Source of the DNA: Geobacter sp.
Lineage (GTDB): Bacteria > Desulfobacterota > Desulfuromonadia > Geobacterales > Geobacteraceae
Assembly (NCBI GenBank): GCA_003574885.1
Contig: PJFC01000005.1
Span: forward strand, 124,001 to 188,000
Reading direction: 5' to 3'
DNA length: 64,000 nt
The first letter of the stretch is position 1. Each line of letters opens with the position of its first letter. Of the stretch, positions 40,170 through 46,740 are shown in pieces. Made by a program: the position numbers and the translations under genes. Below the pieces are notes generated by a model that saw nothing but the letters and a program-made list of their open reading frames with translations, was not told the DNA's origin and made no database searches.

Positions 40170-41021
40170 TCAGTCCGTCAGGTAGTAGTCGGCGTCGCTG
40201 TCGTCCAGGCTCTTCCGTGCGCCGGTGGTGAGCCGCGGGATGACGACCTTGATGGGGAGCGGTGCCAGCTGCTGGAGCTCATAGGGAATGCCGCGCTTCA
40301 TGGCATGCCCTACTCCCGTGAGGACCACCACGAGCCGTTGCGGTTCCCTCTGGTGGTAAGAGAGGAGGTACCAGGCCATGGTCTGGTTCCGCAGTTGCTG
40401 GGCTTCGCAGAAGTGCATGAAGTGCTGTGTGCCGTTGCTACCATGATTTTCAAAGGCGCGGCGGATGAATTCCATATAGGGGGCGTCGATCCGGCAGCTT
40501 ACCACGTTGGGTAGCTGTTGTCGGGCAGCAGGAGGAAGGGATGCAAAACCGTGGCGGGAAACCATCCGGGCGATCTCCAGCGGCACGTCGAGGGCGATCA
40601 GGGGGATGCGGTTGTCCCGTGCGTAAAGGAAAATGTCGCCGTACATGGCCCAGGGAACGGTCCAGCTCTGTTGGTAGCCCCTGACGAACTCGGCGAAGGG
40701 GATTTCCCCCGCACTCCATTTGTCCAGGAGAGGCTGATAATTGTAGCTGAACATCTCAACACCGATGGCAATCGGTATTCCACTCTTGTTCAGGGCCTTG
40801 ATCACGTCAAGCTGGAGGTCGTGATGCTCCCGTTTGTCGTGAACTTCGCCGATGAATACCGCCCCGGCACCCTTAAGGTCTCCGACCATGGCGTCAAAAT
40901 CAACGATCTTGCCGTCTCTGACCCGTTCGAAACGGCTTGCGCAGTCTCCATTTCCGGAAAAAAGCAGGAGCAGGAGCAGACTGGCCAGGAGTCTGAAGAA
41001 TTTCGTGGGGAAGGGCTTCAT
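40170..41021 (-). CDS. ChaN-like exported haem/iron-associated protein
   Basis: 283 residues with a signal peptide (LLASLLLLLLFSG). The ChaN family (DUF399) holds haem-iron regulated proteins. GAVFIGEVHDKREHHDLQ and IAIGVEMFSYNYQPLLDKW mark the family. A canonical lipobox is absent (NGDC), so it may be periplasmic rather than lipid-anchored. The start overlaps the upstream radical SAM gene's stop by four bases (ATGA), so the two are translated together. Confidence 0.85.
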   Translation of the reverse strand: MKPFPTKFFRLLASLLLLLLFSGNGDCASRFERVRDGKIVDFDAMVGDLKGAGAVFIGEVHDKREHHDLQLDVIKALNKSGIPIAIGVEMFSYNYQPLLDKWSAGEIPFAEFVRGYQQSWTVPWAMYGDIFLYARDNRIPLIALDVPLEIARMVSRHGFASLPPAARQQLPNVVSCRIDAPYMEFIRRAFENHGSNGTQHFMHFCEAQQLRNQTMAWYLLSYHQREPQRLVVVLTGVGHAMKRGIPYELQQLAPLPIKVVIPRLTTGARKSLDDSDADYYLTD

Positions 41022-42799
41022 GTGTCTTCCGCCATCCCGGGCTGGCCAATTTTGGCGATCTCCACCGACAGTCCCTTGCCGGGGGCGGAAAGGTAGACGA
41101 ACAGGAGTTCGATCTCCCCTTCCTGCCAGGGTGCCATGCGGTAATCCCGGGCAAACCGACGGCTGATCCACCGTACCCTGCCTCCCACGTCGTCCCCCCC
41201 CTGCCGGGCCAGTTCCAGCGCCTGTTCCTTCATGTTCGGACCCTTTCCACCTTCATCTTCCTTCAGGAAAAACGCCAGTTCCCGTCCCCCAGGGTAGTCG
41301 GTCAGGCAGAGGTCGTAGCAGAGGGCATCCCGGATACCTTCCCTCGCTTCCAGCGGCGCAAGCTCGTTAGCGCAGCGCCAGAACGCAGCGAAGAGGTCGT
41401 GCTGGGACAGGGTGAGGGGGATTTCCGTTGTCTCCCAATACTCGGCCATTGCGGCGAATATCCGGGCAGATGGGGTGGTTTTCTCCCAGGCGGCAAGAGC
41501 GGTGGCGAACCGGCCGCTGTTGTACACGAGATCCAGGAGCCGGGCGATGGTCTCGATGCGGCATATATCGCCGTAGCTGAGCCAGGGGGTGGTGAGTATC
41601 TTGTAGGGTGGGGTGGCGGAGAAGCGGTACCCTTCCTCCCGGGCGATGGCCCGCATGGGTGACCCCTTGAGCACCTTGAGCGGCTCCACTTGTATGTGAC
41701 AATCCGTCTTTTTCCGCCTGCCGGCGTTGGCAGAGAGGAGGTCGAAGACCTGCTGCAGCGAACAGAGGAAACCGTCGAAATCTTCATGGGGTAGTCCCGC
41801 CACCAAGTCCAGATGGACCGTCACGGCTGTTTCGTTCACGAGCCGCCGGACGTTGGCGAAGAGCCGCTCCAGGTCCGAATTCCGGCCAACCCGGTCGAGG
41901 GTTTCCTTCCCCTCGGCCTGCACGCCGATCTCGAACCGGAACATGCCGGGTGGAACCCGCTTCAGTAGTTCGATGTTGGCGCCGGTCAGGATGTCGGCGG
42001 CAATTTCGAAGTGGAACGCGCTTCCCTGGTTGCGGGACAGGATGAACTCCCATATCCGGTTGGCCCGTGGGGCGTCGTAGTTGAAGGTCCGGTCCACCAG
42101 CTTGACGGTCCTGACCCCTGCCGCCATGAGGATATTCAGGTCGGCCTCGATGCGGGAAGGTGGGTAGCTTCGCACCCCCTTCTCCAGGGAGGACATGCAG
42201 AATGCGCAAGAGAAGGGGCATCCGCGGGAGGTCTCGTAGTAGACCAGCGGCTTGGCCAGATCCACCAGGCCCGCGGTGAAGGGGGAGGGGAGGGTGTCCA
42301 GGTCGGCCACCGCCTCCCGTTCCGGATTGGCGACGACATCCTCGTCAGTTCGGAAGGTGATTCCCTCAACTACGGACAGTCCGGCTGCCGCATCCTCCCA
42401 GGAAGCTGTGCCGGCCAGGGCTAGCAAGGCATCGTGGAAGGAGGTTTCCCCTTCTCCCCGGATGACCATGTCCACCGCCGGGTTGCGCTCCATCAGCTCG
42501 AACACCCCGTGGGATGCTTCCGGCCCACCCAGAACAATAACGGTGCCGGGGCGGAGCTGTTTCAGGTCGGCCCCGAGTTTCAGGGTTGCCTCGATGTTCC
42601 AGATATAGCAGGAGAAGGCGATAAGGTCGGCCTCTTCAACCACCAGTCGGCGCAATACCCCGTCGGCCGGCTCGTTCACTGTGAATTCACGGATGACGAA
42701 TTCCGTATCCGGCAAATCGGCACAGGCGGCGGCGAGGGAAGGAAGCGCCAGGGAAGCATGGACGTACTTGGCGTGGAGGGTGGTGAGGAGGACTTTCAT
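41018..42799 (-). CDS. B12-binding radical SAM protein with DUF4080
   Basis: 593 residues. A cobalamin-binding Rossmann domain (residues 1-140; LGGPEASHG near 90) is followed by a radical SAM domain with CPFSCAFC near residue 200. A DUF4080 tail makes up the last 190 residues. The reaction is unknown; the class includes methyltransferases and ring-forming enzymes. ATG 42799 begins the conserved MKVLLTTLHAKY. No ribosome site precedes it, and a TACAAT box ends about ten bases upstream, so the mRNA leader may be very short. Confidence 0.88.
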   Translation of the reverse strand: MKVLLTTLHAKYVHASLALPSLAAACADLPDTEFVIREFTVNEPADGVLRRLVVEEADLIAFSCYIWNIEATLKLGADLKQLRPGTVIVLGGPEASHGVFELMERNPAVDMVIRGEGETSFHDALLALAGTASWEDAAAGLSVVEGITFRTDEDVVANPEREAVADLDTLPSPFTAGLVDLAKPLVYYETSRGCPFSCAFCMSSLEKGVRSYPPSRIEADLNILMAAGVRTVKLVDRTFNYDAPRANRIWEFILSRNQGSAFHFEIAADILTGANIELLKRVPPGMFRFEIGVQAEGKETLDRVGRNSDLERLFANVRRLVNETAVTVHLDLVAGLPHEDFDGFLCSLQQVFDLLSANAGRRKKTDCHIQVEPLKVLKGSPMRAIAREEGYRFSATPPYKILTTPWLSYGDICRIETIARLLDLVYNSGRFATALAAWEKTTPSARIFAAMAEYWETTEIPLTLSQHDLFAAFWRCANELAPLEAREGIRDALCYDLCLTDYPGGRELAFFLKEDEGGKGPNMKEQALELARQGGDDVGGRVRWISRRFARDYRMAPWQEGEIELLFVYLSAPGKGLSVEIAKIGQPGMAEDT

Positions 42800-42935
42800 A
42801 AGGGAAATTGTAGCGGATTGGGATGGTGAAAACCAGCGAAAGTTAATTGGGTGGACTGTTACGTGTACAAAAGGCATTAGGGGTAAAAACAGGGAGAATT
42901 TGGAAAGAGGATAGCGTTTGGTCAATCAATTAAAG

Positions 42936-43207: not shown

Positions 43208-43528
43208 ATGGTTAAATCGAACTTCCTCCTGAAAACGATGGCTTGCATCTGTTTGATAATTGCATTGGCGGGATGTGAAACTACCCAGAGCAGAACTCAG
43301 GAAAGATCTAAAGTGCGTCTTGATGATGCTGTAGTAACCGCCAAAGTAAAGGAAGCCCTTTCAAAAGATCCAGCACTTCAAAAGTACACTATTGAGGTGC
43401 GAACAGTGGGCGGAGAAGTAGCTCTAAAAGGTCATGTCGGTTCTCTTCAGGATATCTTCAAGGCAGCAGAGATCGTTAACAAGATCGAAGGTGTTGATTC
43501 GCTGTATAACGGTCTTACGGATAAATAG
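43208..43528 (+). CDS. BON-domain lipoprotein
   Basis: 106 residues. Lipobox LAGC near residue 23, then one BON domain (about 40-105) with VVTAKVKEALSKDPAL, VRTVGGEVALKGHV and VDSLYNGL. BON proteins bind membranes or phospholipids in the envelope. AAGGAG precedes ATG. Single gene. Confidence 0.88.
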   Translation: MVKSNFLLKTMACICLIIALAGCETTQSRTQERSKVRLDDAVVTAKVKEALSKDPALQKYTIEVRTVGGEVALKGHVGSLQDIFKAAEIVNKIEGVDSLYNGLTDK

Positions 43529-43610: not shown

Positions 43611-44021
43611 TTACGGGGAAGGGGGCGGAGAAAGGCCCAGATCCCGCAGTGCCCGCTCAATGGCGGGGATGTCGTACCCGTCGACGATCCGCTTGCCGTC
43701 GTTGAAGACGACCATCGGCACGATGTCGCCATGGTAGCGTTCGCTCCATTCCTGGCGCGCTTTCTGGTCTTTGCGGATGTCCCTGCTGGTATACGGGATT
43801 CCTTTTCGGGTGAAATAACTTTCCACCTTGGCGCAGTATGGTCAGCCGCTGCCGACGTAGATGGTGATGGCCGGATAGCGGGAAGCGCCGGCGATGAGTT
43901 CGGACGACGGGGCGCAGGCAAGAAGAGAAAGTGTTATGACGAAGAGAGCGATTGCCATCACCAAGCTAGTTTTCCAGTGCGGTTGGGGGGTGGGTGCGCT
44001 CATGCTCGGGCAATTCTTCAT
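43611..44021 (-). CDS. Selenocysteine-containing glutaredoxin-like lipoprotein
   Basis: 136 residues when the in-frame TGA (43842-43844) is read as selenocysteine. Signal peptide with lipobox LLAC (Cys36), then a glutaredoxin fold beginning AITIYVGSG. The active site is Sec60-Pro-Tyr-Cys63, the glutaredoxin CPYC motif with Sec in place of the first Cys. It continues AKVESYFTRKGIPYTSRDI and VPMVVFNDGKRIVDGYD. GGGGAG eight bases before ATG 44021 fixes the start. Without recoding, the gene appears as two short frames ending and starting at the TGA. It is probably a periplasmic thiol-disulfide or selenol-dependent oxidoreductase. Selenoproteins, including glutaredoxin-like ones, are known in Geobacter. 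Confidence 0.85.
43809..43827 (-). promoter_or_regulatory. SECIS-like hairpin for the glutaredoxin UGA
   Basis: On the mRNA, GGUG(G)AAA pairs with UUUCACC around loop GUUA, with one bulged G. The loop G is 23 nt after the UGA. That fits the bacterial SECIS rule of a short hairpin with G/U in the loop about 16-37 nt downstream. Confidence 0.65.
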
Positions 44022-44204: not shown

Positions 44205-45533
44205 ATGAAACGAAAAACTTTGCCCAAGCTTCTCTACGCCGACGCCAAGGGGAACATCTTCGACCACCCCTACTTTACCATGGCCGGGATGAACGGCACC
44301 GAGCCGGTCCTCCCCGACGACGTGGAACTGATCCCCCTCCCCGAGGACAGCCGTCTCTTCACCATTCCCAATACCCCCCCCATGGCCTGGGACGCCAAGA
44401 AGCGCGCCTTCGTCACCGTCGAGACGGTGCGTGAGGGGAAACGGGAGCAGCGGGTCCAGGCGGTTTCCGCTTTCATGGCCCCCGGCTATGTCCGGACCCT
44501 TCTTCCCGCCTGCGACTATGGCCGCAAGAAGGTCCATCTTCCCCTCTGGTCCTATACGGCCGTCGGTTGGGATGAGGAGAGCGAACGGTTCGTGGTGGCG
44601 GCCAGCCGGGTGGACGGCAATGAGAACTGGCTCCCCAAAAACTACGACGACCGGAAGCTCGATCCCATGGTGCGCAAGCTGGTGGCGGAATTCCCCGACA
44701 ACCGGCTCCTCGTTCAGCTGGCACGCTGCGCCGTGGATTACCATTGTTTTGCCGCCAAGAACCTCTTCTTCCGCCGCTGGGAGGCTCCTATCCCCACCTC
44801 TCCCGCCTGCAATTCCCGCTGTCTCGGCTGCATCAGCCTGCAACCGTCCGACTGCTGCCCTTCCAACCAGGAGCGGATCGGTTTCGTCCCGACTCCGGAA
44901 GAGATCGTGGAGCTGATGCTTCCCCACCTGAACGAGGCTCCGGAACCGATTGTTTCCTACGGCCAGGGGTGCGAGGGAGATCCGATCCTCCAGGCGGACA
45001 CCATCGCCGAGGCGACCCGGCGACTGAAGGCCGCCACGAGCCGAGGCACGGTCAATTTCAACTCCAACGGCTCCTTCCCCGACCGGATCGCGCTTCTTTG
45101 CGACGCGGGTGTGGATTCCATGCGCTTTTCCATGAATTCGGTGCAGGAGGAGTTCTACAACCGCTACTACCGCCCCGTGGGATACACCTTTTCCTCGGTG
45201 AAGGAGTCGGTCCGGCTTGCGAAGGAGCGGGGGCTCTTCACCATGATCAACTACCTGGTGTCGCCGGGACTGACTGACCGGGAGGACGAGGTAGAGGCGC
45301 TCCTCCGCTTCATCGGAGAGACCGGTGTGGACATGATCCAGATGCGGAACCTCTCCATCGATCCTGATTTCTACAACAAGAGGATGGGTGTGTCGGGAAA
45401 AGGAATCGGGATGTACCGGATGCTGGAACGGGTGAAAAAAGAGTTCCCACGCATCCAGTACGGCTACTTCAACCGGACGCGAGAGAATTTCTATCCGGCG
45501 GGGTACGAGGCGGGATGGCCGATCCGGGGGTAG
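44205..45533 (+). CDS. Radical SAM protein
   Basis: 442 residues. About 190 N-terminal residues precede the radical SAM core with CNSRCLGC (CxxxCxxC) near residue 200. SYGQGCEGDP and VNFNSNGSFP follow as the SAM-binding part of the barrel. A CCPSN just after the cluster motif adds more cysteines. No substrate can be assigned. AAGGTG precedes ATG. Transcribed divergently from the selenoprotein gene, 183 bp away. Confidence 0.85.
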   Translation: MKRKTLPKLLYADAKGNIFDHPYFTMAGMNGTEPVLPDDVELIPLPEDSRLFTIPNTPPMAWDAKKRAFVTVETVREGKREQRVQAVSAFMAPGYVRTLLPACDYGRKKVHLPLWSYTAVGWDEESERFVVAASRVDGNENWLPKNYDDRKLDPMVRKLVAEFPDNRLLVQLARCAVDYHCFAAKNLFFRRWEAPIPTSPACNSRCLGCISLQPSDCCPSNQERIGFVPTPEEIVELMLPHLNEAPEPIVSYGQGCEGDPILQADTIAEATRRLKAATSRGTVNFNSNGSFPDRIALLCDAGVDSMRFSMNSVQEEFYNRYYRPVGYTFSSVKESVRLAKERGLFTMINYLVSPGLTDREDEVEALLRFIGETGVDMIQMRNLSIDPDFYNKRMGVSGKGIGMYRMLERVKKEFPRIQYGYFNRTRENFYPAGYEAGWPIRG

Positions 45534-45536
45534 GGA

Positions 45537-46487
45537 TCACCACCAACGCCAGAGGGCCACGACCAGCGTGATGAGGAATACCATGGTCAGGTTCATGTAG
45601 GCCATGAAGTAGAATACCCGCACGTGCAACGGCTGCTTCACCTTGACCGATTCCGTTACCAGGTCGCCGATCCGCGGCATGGCCAGCACCCGGTCTTCGC
45701 CGTGGGGCGCCTGGGAGAGCGCCTCCGTCAGGTCAATTCCGGCCTGATGCCGGCGCATGTGCGACCCTTCCTTCCAGAGCCTGCTTTCCGTCACATCGTA
45801 GATTCCCCCCTGATAGGCCACGTAGGTCGGCCGACCCTCTTTCCCGTCGAATCCGCCGAGTACTTCCATTGTCATATCCCCGCCGGTCGCTGCAGGTGTC
45901 CCGCCGTTTCTTATCTGTCGCCGGAGTTTGGGGCCGATGACGGTTACCACGTAAAGGGCGGAGATGACCATGATGGCGAAGAGGGAGACCTTGATCGTGA
46001 GGAGGATGCCGAAGCGGGTGGTGAGGATGAGCGCCGGGTCAGGCACCCGGTAGTGGGTGAGGATGGCGCCGGTCACGGCCATCGTGGCCATGGAGGCGAG
46101 GCCGACCCGCATTTCTCCCCGGGGAAGCCCGGATGCGGCGTAGGCCGGCTTCAGTACGAGGTGGACGTAGAGGATGGTGCCGAACCAGAGGATGGCAGTG
46201 ATGAGGTGGAGGTAGCCGGCCACCAGCCGAAAGAGCCGGCTGGCCGCGGAGCGTTCCGGTGCTGTAGCGGGAGCCGGTGCTGCGGCAGGAGAAGTGGCGA
46301 GGGTGCCGCTCTTCTGGAAACCGACCCCCGCCGCGGTCAGCTCGCCTCCCCCGGCCGGGTCGATATGGCAGGTCTTGCAAGGCTGGCCGGTCTGGCGGGC
46401 GTACTCTTCTGTCGCCATGGCCCCCAGCGGAAGGGCCAGCAGGATGAGGGAGAAAAGAAGCGCTCTAGCGCCTGATGGCAAAGTCAT
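45537..46487 (-). CDS. Cytochrome c / CopD / cytochrome b5-like fusion
   Basis: 316 residues with three parts. After the signal peptide, one c-type haem site CKTCH lies near residue 38. A CopD-like membrane domain with four helices (about 85-205) follows. A cytochrome b5-like haem-binding segment comes next (about 215-285; YVAYQGGIYDVTESRLWKEGSHM) and a last helix ends the protein. It probably passes electrons across or along the inner membrane. GGGGGAG four bases before this ATG sets the start. It overlaps the upstream acylphosphatase gene by 23 bases. Confidence 0.8.
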   Translation of the reverse strand: MTLPSGARALLFSLILLALPLGAMATEEYARQTGQPCKTCHIDPAGGGELTAAGVGFQKSGTLATSPAAAPAPATAPERSAASRLFRLVAGYLHLITAILWFGTILYVHLVLKPAYAASGLPRGEMRVGLASMATMAVTGAILTHYRVPDPALILTTRFGILLTIKVSLFAIMVISALYVVTVIGPKLRRQIRNGGTPAATGGDMTMEVLGGFDGKEGRPTYVAYQGGIYDVTESRLWKEGSHMRRHQAGIDLTEALSQAPHGEDRVLAMPRIGDLVTESVKVKQPLHVRVFYFMAYMNLTMVFLITLVVALWRWW

Positions 46488-46740
46488 CGAACTCCCCCGT
46501 GTAGGTGTCACGCTCTGTCACCACTGCATCCACCCTGGACGCGCTCGGGCCGGTACGGCACCAGTCGACGAGGGCCAGAACCTTTGCCTCTTCTCCCTCG
46601 AAGCACCCCTCTACCGAGCCGTCGGGAAGGTTCTGCACCCATCCCGTCACCTGCAAGCGGATGGCATTCTGCTGCGTGAAGCGACGGAAATTAACCCTCT
46701 GTACGAGCCCCTTTACAATTACCATGGTACGGATTTTCAT
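46465..46740 (-). CDS. acyP: Acylphosphatase
   Basis: 91-residue enzyme that hydrolyses acyl phosphates. The phosphate loop reads VKGLVQRVNFR with Arg19, and Asn37 is in GWVQNLPDGSVEG; both are the expected catalytic residues. The Gly-Val-Gly-Phe form of the loop is changed to Arg-Val-Asn-Phe. AAAGGA precedes ATG 46740. Its 3' end overlaps the cytochrome fusion gene. Confidence 0.9.
   Translation of the reverse strand: MKIRTMVIVKGLVQRVNFRRFTQQNAIRLQVTGWVQNLPDGSVEGCFEGEEAKVLALVDWCRTGPSASRVDAVVTERDTYTGEFDDFAIRR

Follow-up and report, generated by a model that had tools for sequence, protein, structure and literature searches.

A probable glutaredoxin-like selenoprotein family, apparently exported and encoded through an in-frame UGA, in Geobacter and related genera

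Glutaredoxins that contain selenocysteine (Sec) and glutaredoxins that are exported have both been described. One of the former is cGrx1 of Clostridium oremlandii (PDB 7c10 and 7c12), a native selenoprotein described as a thiol-disulfide oxidoreductase, in which Sec was replaced by Cys for structure determination (PMC7642778). A preliminary description of this locus stated that selenoproteins, glutaredoxin-like ones included, are established in Geobacter. A Sec glutaredoxin is listed for G. sulfurreducens (PMC1794560), and a glutaredoxin selenoprotein, WP_010943784.1, is given as an example with its host not stated (PMC13188914). An exported glutaredoxin is represented by GSU2812 of G. sulfurreducens, which rises under cobalt stress (PMC7726332). 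No description of a glutaredoxin that is both exported and Sec-containing was found in the accessible text of the open-licence literature; the available portions of PMC13188914 make no mention of lipoprotein, periplasm or Geobacter, and in those of PMC9312934 lipoprotein and Geobacter are absent and the two mentions of periplasm concern selenite reduction.

The window analysed here is the whole stretch of 64,000 nucleotides of Geobacter sp. DNA, and the locus within it is a single 136-codon frame plus TAA on the minus strand (44021-43611) whose sole interruption is a TGA at 43844-43842 (Table 1). The frame opens with an ATG at 44021, starts MKNCPSMSAPTPQPHWKTSLVMAIALFVITLSLLAC and, with the TGA read as Sec, runs via GSGUPYC to a final TAA that reaches 43611; a Shine-Dalgarno-like GGGGAG, read from the sequence by eye, lies 8 nt before the ATG. 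In its own genome the gene is at C12:167614-168021, with one internal TGA. The listing of open reading frames cuts it in two, a 78-codon frame that begins at a TTG ahead of the ATG and runs to the TGA, and one of 71 codons after it (43826-43611) with a GTG start. The preliminary description had joined two minus-strand frames across the TGA at 43842-43844, and its coordinates are exact.

Table 1. Predicted features of the Sec glutaredoxin locus, in window positions.
Feature	Position	Strand	Basis
Full-length selenoprotein frame of 136 codons, one of them for Sec, closed by TAA (predicted)	43611..44021	-	Translation, Pfam, 24 orthologues including the window gene
UGA decoded as Sec60 in the U-P-Y-C active site (predicted)	43842..43844	-	TGA in 24/24 orthologues
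N-terminal export signal, residues 1-36 (predicted)	43914..44021	-	Translation, motif scan of 24 orthologues, low-confidence model helix 16-35
SECIS-like hairpin GGUGGAA-AGUUA-UUUCACC, 7 bp, 5-nt loop	43809..43827	-	Fold, covariation, published SECIS model
Glutaredoxin-fold domain, residues 52-126	43644..43868	-	Pfam, structure model, Z 12.7 to 7c10 (model residues 49-126)

Orthologues of the gene occur in a minority of the genomes of the order. A first search of 58 genomes, 45 of which have some match at E <= 1e-8, yielded 12 orthologues with a TGA inside each. When 141 genomes of the order were searched with a profile (E <= 1e-22), 25 gave a single match each; in 24 of them (24/141) it is an orthologue bearing U-x-[YH]-C, and in the remaining one a Cys paralogue (L154). 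The carriers span seven genera and three families by manual count, and at the border of the family the score drops by 50 bits, from 134 to 84, to the next matches. A class-wide search (277 genomes, E <= 1e-16) revealed no orthologue besides these 24, and a search of 395 genomes drawn evenly from the phylum (E <= 1e-19) recovered five, all within the order and all among the 24. The plasmid search gave no match, and among viral contigs 23 stretches fit a pattern, none of which is a relative. The distribution is patchy, since one genome (G002) has no orthologue in a genus in which three others (G000, G001 and G003) do; G002 has SelA.

All 24 orthologues have TGA at the active-site codon and none has a Cys codon there, the motif reading GUSYC in 11, GUGYC in seven, GUPYC in four, and GUTYC and GULHC in one each. 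In ten of the 24 the terminal stop is also TGA, such that UGA would be both Sec and stop within the same gene, a double use that calls for a local signal. One alternative is that the internal UGA is a true stop, leaving a 59-residue truncated lipoprotein with a decaying or re-started remnant behind it, and it is in keeping with a standard translation that ends at 43842 and with the GTG-started frame downstream. A protein re-started at that GTG would be without the active site and the first strand of the fold, and the region past the UGA is conserved in a manner not expected of a remnant: every one of the 24 orthologues keeps the resolving Cys, the predicted cis-Pro motif [IM]VP and an open frame, and across seven compared pairs dN/dS past the UGA is 0.09-0.40 (0.10-0.45 without the hairpin codons). 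The reading frame after the UGA is thus under purifying selection, as estimated from these comparisons, and with both the TGA and the downstream frame retained throughout, their combination is not a matter of chance. We regard a true stop as very improbable.

A SECIS-like hairpin follows the UGA, with a gap of 14 nt to the stem and 21 nt to the loop. The bacterial SECIS model, as given in the available text of PMC13188914, allows 16-37 nt from UGA to loop, a loop of 3-9 nt and a stem of 4-16 bp, with a G within the first two loop bases and a minimum free energy of at most -7.5 kcal/mol. The window hairpin is within the limits of that model for spacing (21), loop (5), stem (7) and G (second base), and its energy of -6.9 kcal/mol for 45 nt is weaker than the -7.5 of the model, a value reached by a 51-nt stretch. 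The position and distance proposed in the preliminary description hold, with the energy limit reached only at 51 nt. The 45-nt fold is ordinary against shuffles (z = -0.07), so that the hairpin of a single sequence is no evidence on its own, and it is the conservation that counts. An Rfam scan of the window gave nothing above cut-offs.

Pairing of the stem is kept in 99.4% of cells among 23 of the 24 Sec sequences, and in 167/168 cells with all 24 included, against 72/119 cells at the same positions in 17 Cys paralogues used as a control (17 of 19 loci; L105 and L109 were dropped for having Arg where the pattern asks for Lys). The covariation score over the 23 sequences is 0.164, compared with a shuffled mean of 0.088 (0/500 as high) and slid values of at most 0.027, with the qualification that relatedness among sequences can by itself give scores above such shuffles in the absence of structure; the sequence left out, L139, has the same hairpin letters as the window gene. 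Two pairs show changes on both sides, pair 20-34 (UA 16, CG 7) and pair 24-30 (AU 22, GC 1). Seven of the eight both-side changes lie within one genus (g18), with L150 as a separate case, and the seven CG cells of pair 20-34 may go back to one inherited event. L149 lacks the outermost pair, and its 45-nt fold reaches only -3.9 kcal/mol; in seven of the 24 the isolated stem has an eighth pair and a 3-nt loop.

Codon usage within the hairpin is uniform, with codons +5, +6, +7, +8, +10 and +11 past the UGA each using one codon for the majority amino acid (expected homogeneity 0.23-0.52, with background taken from the 3' portions of these 24 genes). Examples are Val GTG (17/17), Glu GAA (23/23), Ser AGT (21/21), Phe TTC (24/24) and Thr ACC (17/17), and codon +9 is Tyr TAT in 16 of 17 and TAC in one; codons outside the hairpin are equally uniform, namely -2 (AGC 14/14), +2 (TAC 23/23), +13 (AAA 15/15) and +44 (ATC 16/16).

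The genome contains the full machinery for Sec insertion, which the preliminary description had named as a check, and all four components are above curated cut-offs: tRNA-Sec at C10:184865 (74.7 bits, cut-off 47), SelA at C14:43627 (616.7 bits), SelB at C1:334003 (338.9 bits, or 369.2 with its neighbour, cut-off 242.25) and SelD at C1:974792. The SelD gene has its own in-frame TGA near the start (L180:1531-1533), read AAGUAAK, so that SelD is probably itself a selenoprotein and provides an internal sign that UGA is used for Sec in this genome. ARAGORN reports no tRNA within the window. SelA is present in 120 of the 141 genomes of the order (119 above cut-off). Among the 24 carriers, 23 have it, the lone one without a SelA match (G081) being an 88% complete metagenome-assembled genome; with SelA so common, its co-occurrence with the gene is weak evidence.

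Low-level readthrough of UGA occurs in bacteria, and the UGA could in principle be read by an ordinary amino acid, or the two halves be made as separate proteins by stop and restart. Against this are a hairpin that covaries, lies at SECIS spacing and does not stay paired in the Cys paralogues, the complete Sec machinery, and the coincidence of the UGA with the catalytic Cys position of glutaredoxins, at which no orthologue has a Cys codon; we give such ordinary decoding very little weight. The reading of GSG-U-PYC as a Sec active site within a glutaredoxin domain, put forward in the preliminary description, draws support from the orthologue TGA codons, the conserved hairpin and the Sec machinery, and these comparisons make it very probable that the UGA is read as selenocysteine and that this is a selenoprotein gene. 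SelB carrying Sec-tRNA-Sec would recognise the hairpin just downstream and the ribosome would insert Sec at the UGA, a step strongly supported by comparison.

The domain that surrounds the UGA is predicted to adopt a normal glutaredoxin fold, as had been proposed. Pfam Glutaredoxin (PF00462) matches residues 52-108 (3.6e-13; 49.9 bits against a cut-off of 22.9), and a structure model (whole-chain mean pLDDT 79.2, pTM 0.61) has block means of 88-95 over residues 51-130. The model consists of a low-confidence helix at 16-35, a low-confidence linker and the domain, whose strands and helices follow the glutaredoxin order and whose helix 61-72 starts right after residue 60. The best PDB match by sequence is GSSG-bound cGrx2 (4tr0; 4.1e-07), with Sec60 aligned to the first Cys of its CPYC site. 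VIA-align ranks 7c10 (cGrx1) highest, at Z 12.7 with an rmsd of 1.3 for 75 aligned residues, and 7c12, 3zit and 3zij tie with it to within 1; Foldseek places BC3987 first (E 6.2e-06) and 7c10 seventh. The best NCBIfam match is the YruB family model TIGR02196, at 61.1 bits against a cut-off of 88.55; it matches all 24 members at E <= 0.001, with no member beating the E-value of the window protein. No NCBIfam model reaches its cut-off on the window protein and a plain translation ends after residue 59, and the gene is thus prone to mis-annotation.

The N-terminus of the window protein resembles an export signal, with an n-region at residues 1-17, a hydrophobic segment at about 19-35 and a lipobox-like SLLAC containing Cys36; lipobox rules call for a Cys following a hydrophobic segment. 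Most of the 24 orthologues have an N-terminal hydrophobic stretch, as judged by eye. A PROSITE-like lipobox pattern is matched in eight of the 24 (L131, L132, L134-L138 and L150), the window gene among them; six others carry a Cys at the matching site that deviates from consensus (L130, L139, L140-L142 and L145) and ten have no Cys there, four of these having Cys18 in another setting, with the latter two groups split by reading. Signal calls are weak for three members: L139, whose start was placed manually at a non-start codon, and L149 and L150, whose starts are uncertain. From these motifs we predict with good confidence that the Sec glutaredoxin is exported by its N-terminal signal. An export signal is likely general in the family and a lipid anchor likely a trait of some members, the window protein included; on the window protein itself, a lipid on Cys36 is favoured with some reservation. 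The earlier proposal of a lipoprotein is therefore upheld in part, in that SLLAC is present in the window protein, but a consensus lipobox is found in only eight of the 24 orthologues.

The next matches below the 24 orthologues are Cys paralogues wherever they were read (19 loci and four more genomes). All have C-x-x-C, mostly as W-C-P-H-C, and any TGA comes after the end of the protein. Five matches flagged as having a TGA inside, L154 (G031), L155 (G073), L158 (G029) and those of G007 and G042, were rejected as candidates, the TGA lying past the end of a C-x-x-C protein; among matches flagged with TAG or TAA only, the genes read were L097 and the L101 to L103-type loci. Homologues with Cys in place of the UGA, anticipated in the preliminary description, do therefore exist, as paralogues, while the orthologues all retain TGA. 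The genome of the window has such a paralogue at C11:107351-107653, 34% identical to the Sec protein, with W-C-P-H-C and no UGA. Signal-like N-termini, judged by eye, are common among the Cys paralogues of these genomes, some with a lipobox-like Cys, and GSU2812 is described as exported, so that the view that export is uncommon for glutaredoxins does not apply to this group. Three Cys paralogues (L095, L155 and the single gene L099/L158) have a lipobox-like LAC, so that anchoring of glutaredoxins by lipid may have evolved more than once. In a tree of 52 rows, built from few columns with long branches and an unsettled bootstrap, the 17 Cys paralogues group together on a separate branch (support 98/91). 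The 24 Sec rows fall on one side of a branch at only 58/0, which does not establish a single origin of the Sec family. The question raised is why no Cys form of the Sec family is seen although a Cys paralogue is present in the same genome.

The Sec glutaredoxin gene is a solitary one: on one side a radical SAM gene (44205-45533) diverges from it, and on the other a BON-domain gene (43208-43528) converges on it. Neighbourhoods of about 12 kb from 20 of the 23 other carriers, shorter for G068, G081 and G137 and with G136, G138 and G139 left out, show neighbours that differ between genera and recur in genus g13 and in small groups. Among the listed clusters of at least four genomes in these 20 neighbourhoods, no operon partner was found at a constant place; clusters that overlap the gene were set aside as its own 3' frame or as antisense or shifted frames. 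Several of the adjacent genes have features of their own. The BON-domain protein (plus strand) is small and has a lipobox-like LAGC, and the locus is flanked by two different radical SAM proteins (44205-45533, plus; 41018-42925, minus), one with a B12-binding domain and DUF4080, both of which are also nearby in G001 and G003 as judged by their first residues. At 45537-46511 (minus) is a membrane protein with an N-terminal C-x-x-C-H and CopD and cytochrome b5-like domains, an unusual-looking electron-transfer fusion.

The product would be exported through its N-terminal signal and, in the window species, probably anchored by lipid at Cys36, and the extracytoplasmic glutaredoxin domain would act as a thiol-disulfide or a peroxide/sulfoxide reductase. 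The selenolate of Sec60 would attack an oxidised target and Cys63 would resolve the product as a selenenylsulfide, chemistry that we infer from the U-x-[YH]-C motif and cGrx1. How such a protein is recharged outside the cytoplasm is a question raised by the gene. Searches of the genome (rated 100% complete, 23 contigs) for two glutathione-synthesis domains, PF02955 and PF04107, gave no match, with an E. coli control positive for both, and a glutathione cycle is consequently doubtful. The usual glutathione-binding residues of glutaredoxins are a Lys before the active site and TVP. Where cGrx2 has Lys, three residues before the catalytic one, all 24 orthologues have Gly (17) or Ala (7), and in place of the TVP Thr they have Ile (21) or Met (3). 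CcdA and DsbD are electron donors of the envelope, and with both the undetected domains and the two altered residues pointing from glutathione to a protein donor, recharging would come from a CcdA/DsbD-like membrane protein; on this sequence evidence recharging without glutathione is the slightly better supported option. The protein could instead be an exported, canonical glutathione-dependent glutaredoxin, a reading compatible with Sec that differs in the recharging step. The Pfam match, U-P-Y-C, [IM]VP and the GSSG-bound cGrx2 as best PDB match would all suit it, but the two domains not found and the two substitutions common to every orthologue make it rather unlikely.

A 2026 review points to a different function: in SaoB, SaoC and UXX-star proteins, the Sec residue may serve as a ligand for metals or encounter other substrates (PMC13188914, available text). 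The Sec glutaredoxin might in the same way mainly bind metal or selenium species outside the cytoplasm rather than exchange disulfides, and the behaviour of GSU2812 under cobalt stress would fit this. The resolving Cys present throughout the family (U-x-[YH]-C), UXX-star models that remain under their cut-offs, and the position of cGrx1, a thiol-disulfide oxidoreductase, among the top fold matches all tell against it, and we think this function improbable, though not negligible. Returning to disulfide exchange, a distinct and obligately Sec-using exported branch might, beside the Cys paralogue, run a selenium redox relay of the cell envelope that needs no glutathione; this can be offered tentatively and is a doubtful proposition as a whole. 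If true, such a relay might for instance keep the CXXCH of c-type cytochromes reduced or repair metal-oxidised envelope proteins in these iron reducers.

The closest parallels share some features with the window protein and differ in others. As is predicted for it, cGrx1 has Sec first in the active site, and a V-x-G-[FY]-D stretch near the end is common to both; their identity is 25% over the fold alignment, the cGrx1 PDB chain of 84 residues begins at the domain, the motif of the Cys-replaced structure is CPHC, and cGrx1 is the proposed reductant of a Sec MsrA. The thioredoxin-like BC3987 (3zij and 3zit) is similar in fold (Z 12.1-12.3) with 26-30% identity, and compared with the YruB family the window protein has a predicted Sec and an apparent export signal in addition. 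The Uxx-star selenoproteins likewise resemble glutaredoxins and have Sec as the first residue of the active site, but on the window protein NF041212 scores 45.5 bits against a cut-off of 66, and NF041114, NF041211 and NF047338 score 20.2, 21.1 and 18.9, far under their cut-offs; the motif of NF041114 is UxxT (PMC13188914, available text), whereas the window family keeps the resolving Cys in all 24 members. The G. sulfurreducens Sec glutaredoxin belongs to the same broad group, and is likened here by description only. The Cys paralogue of the window genome and, again by description only, GSU2812 share a signal-like N-terminus and a glutaredoxin domain with it, but unlike the Sec family the apparently exported Cys glutaredoxins of the genomes searched have no UGA and do not keep the hairpin pairing. 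Sec glutaredoxins and an exported glutaredoxin were thus already known, and what stands out, and is added here, is an apparently exported glutaredoxin family that spans seven genera and is predicted to be UGA-encoded in each of the 24 members found.
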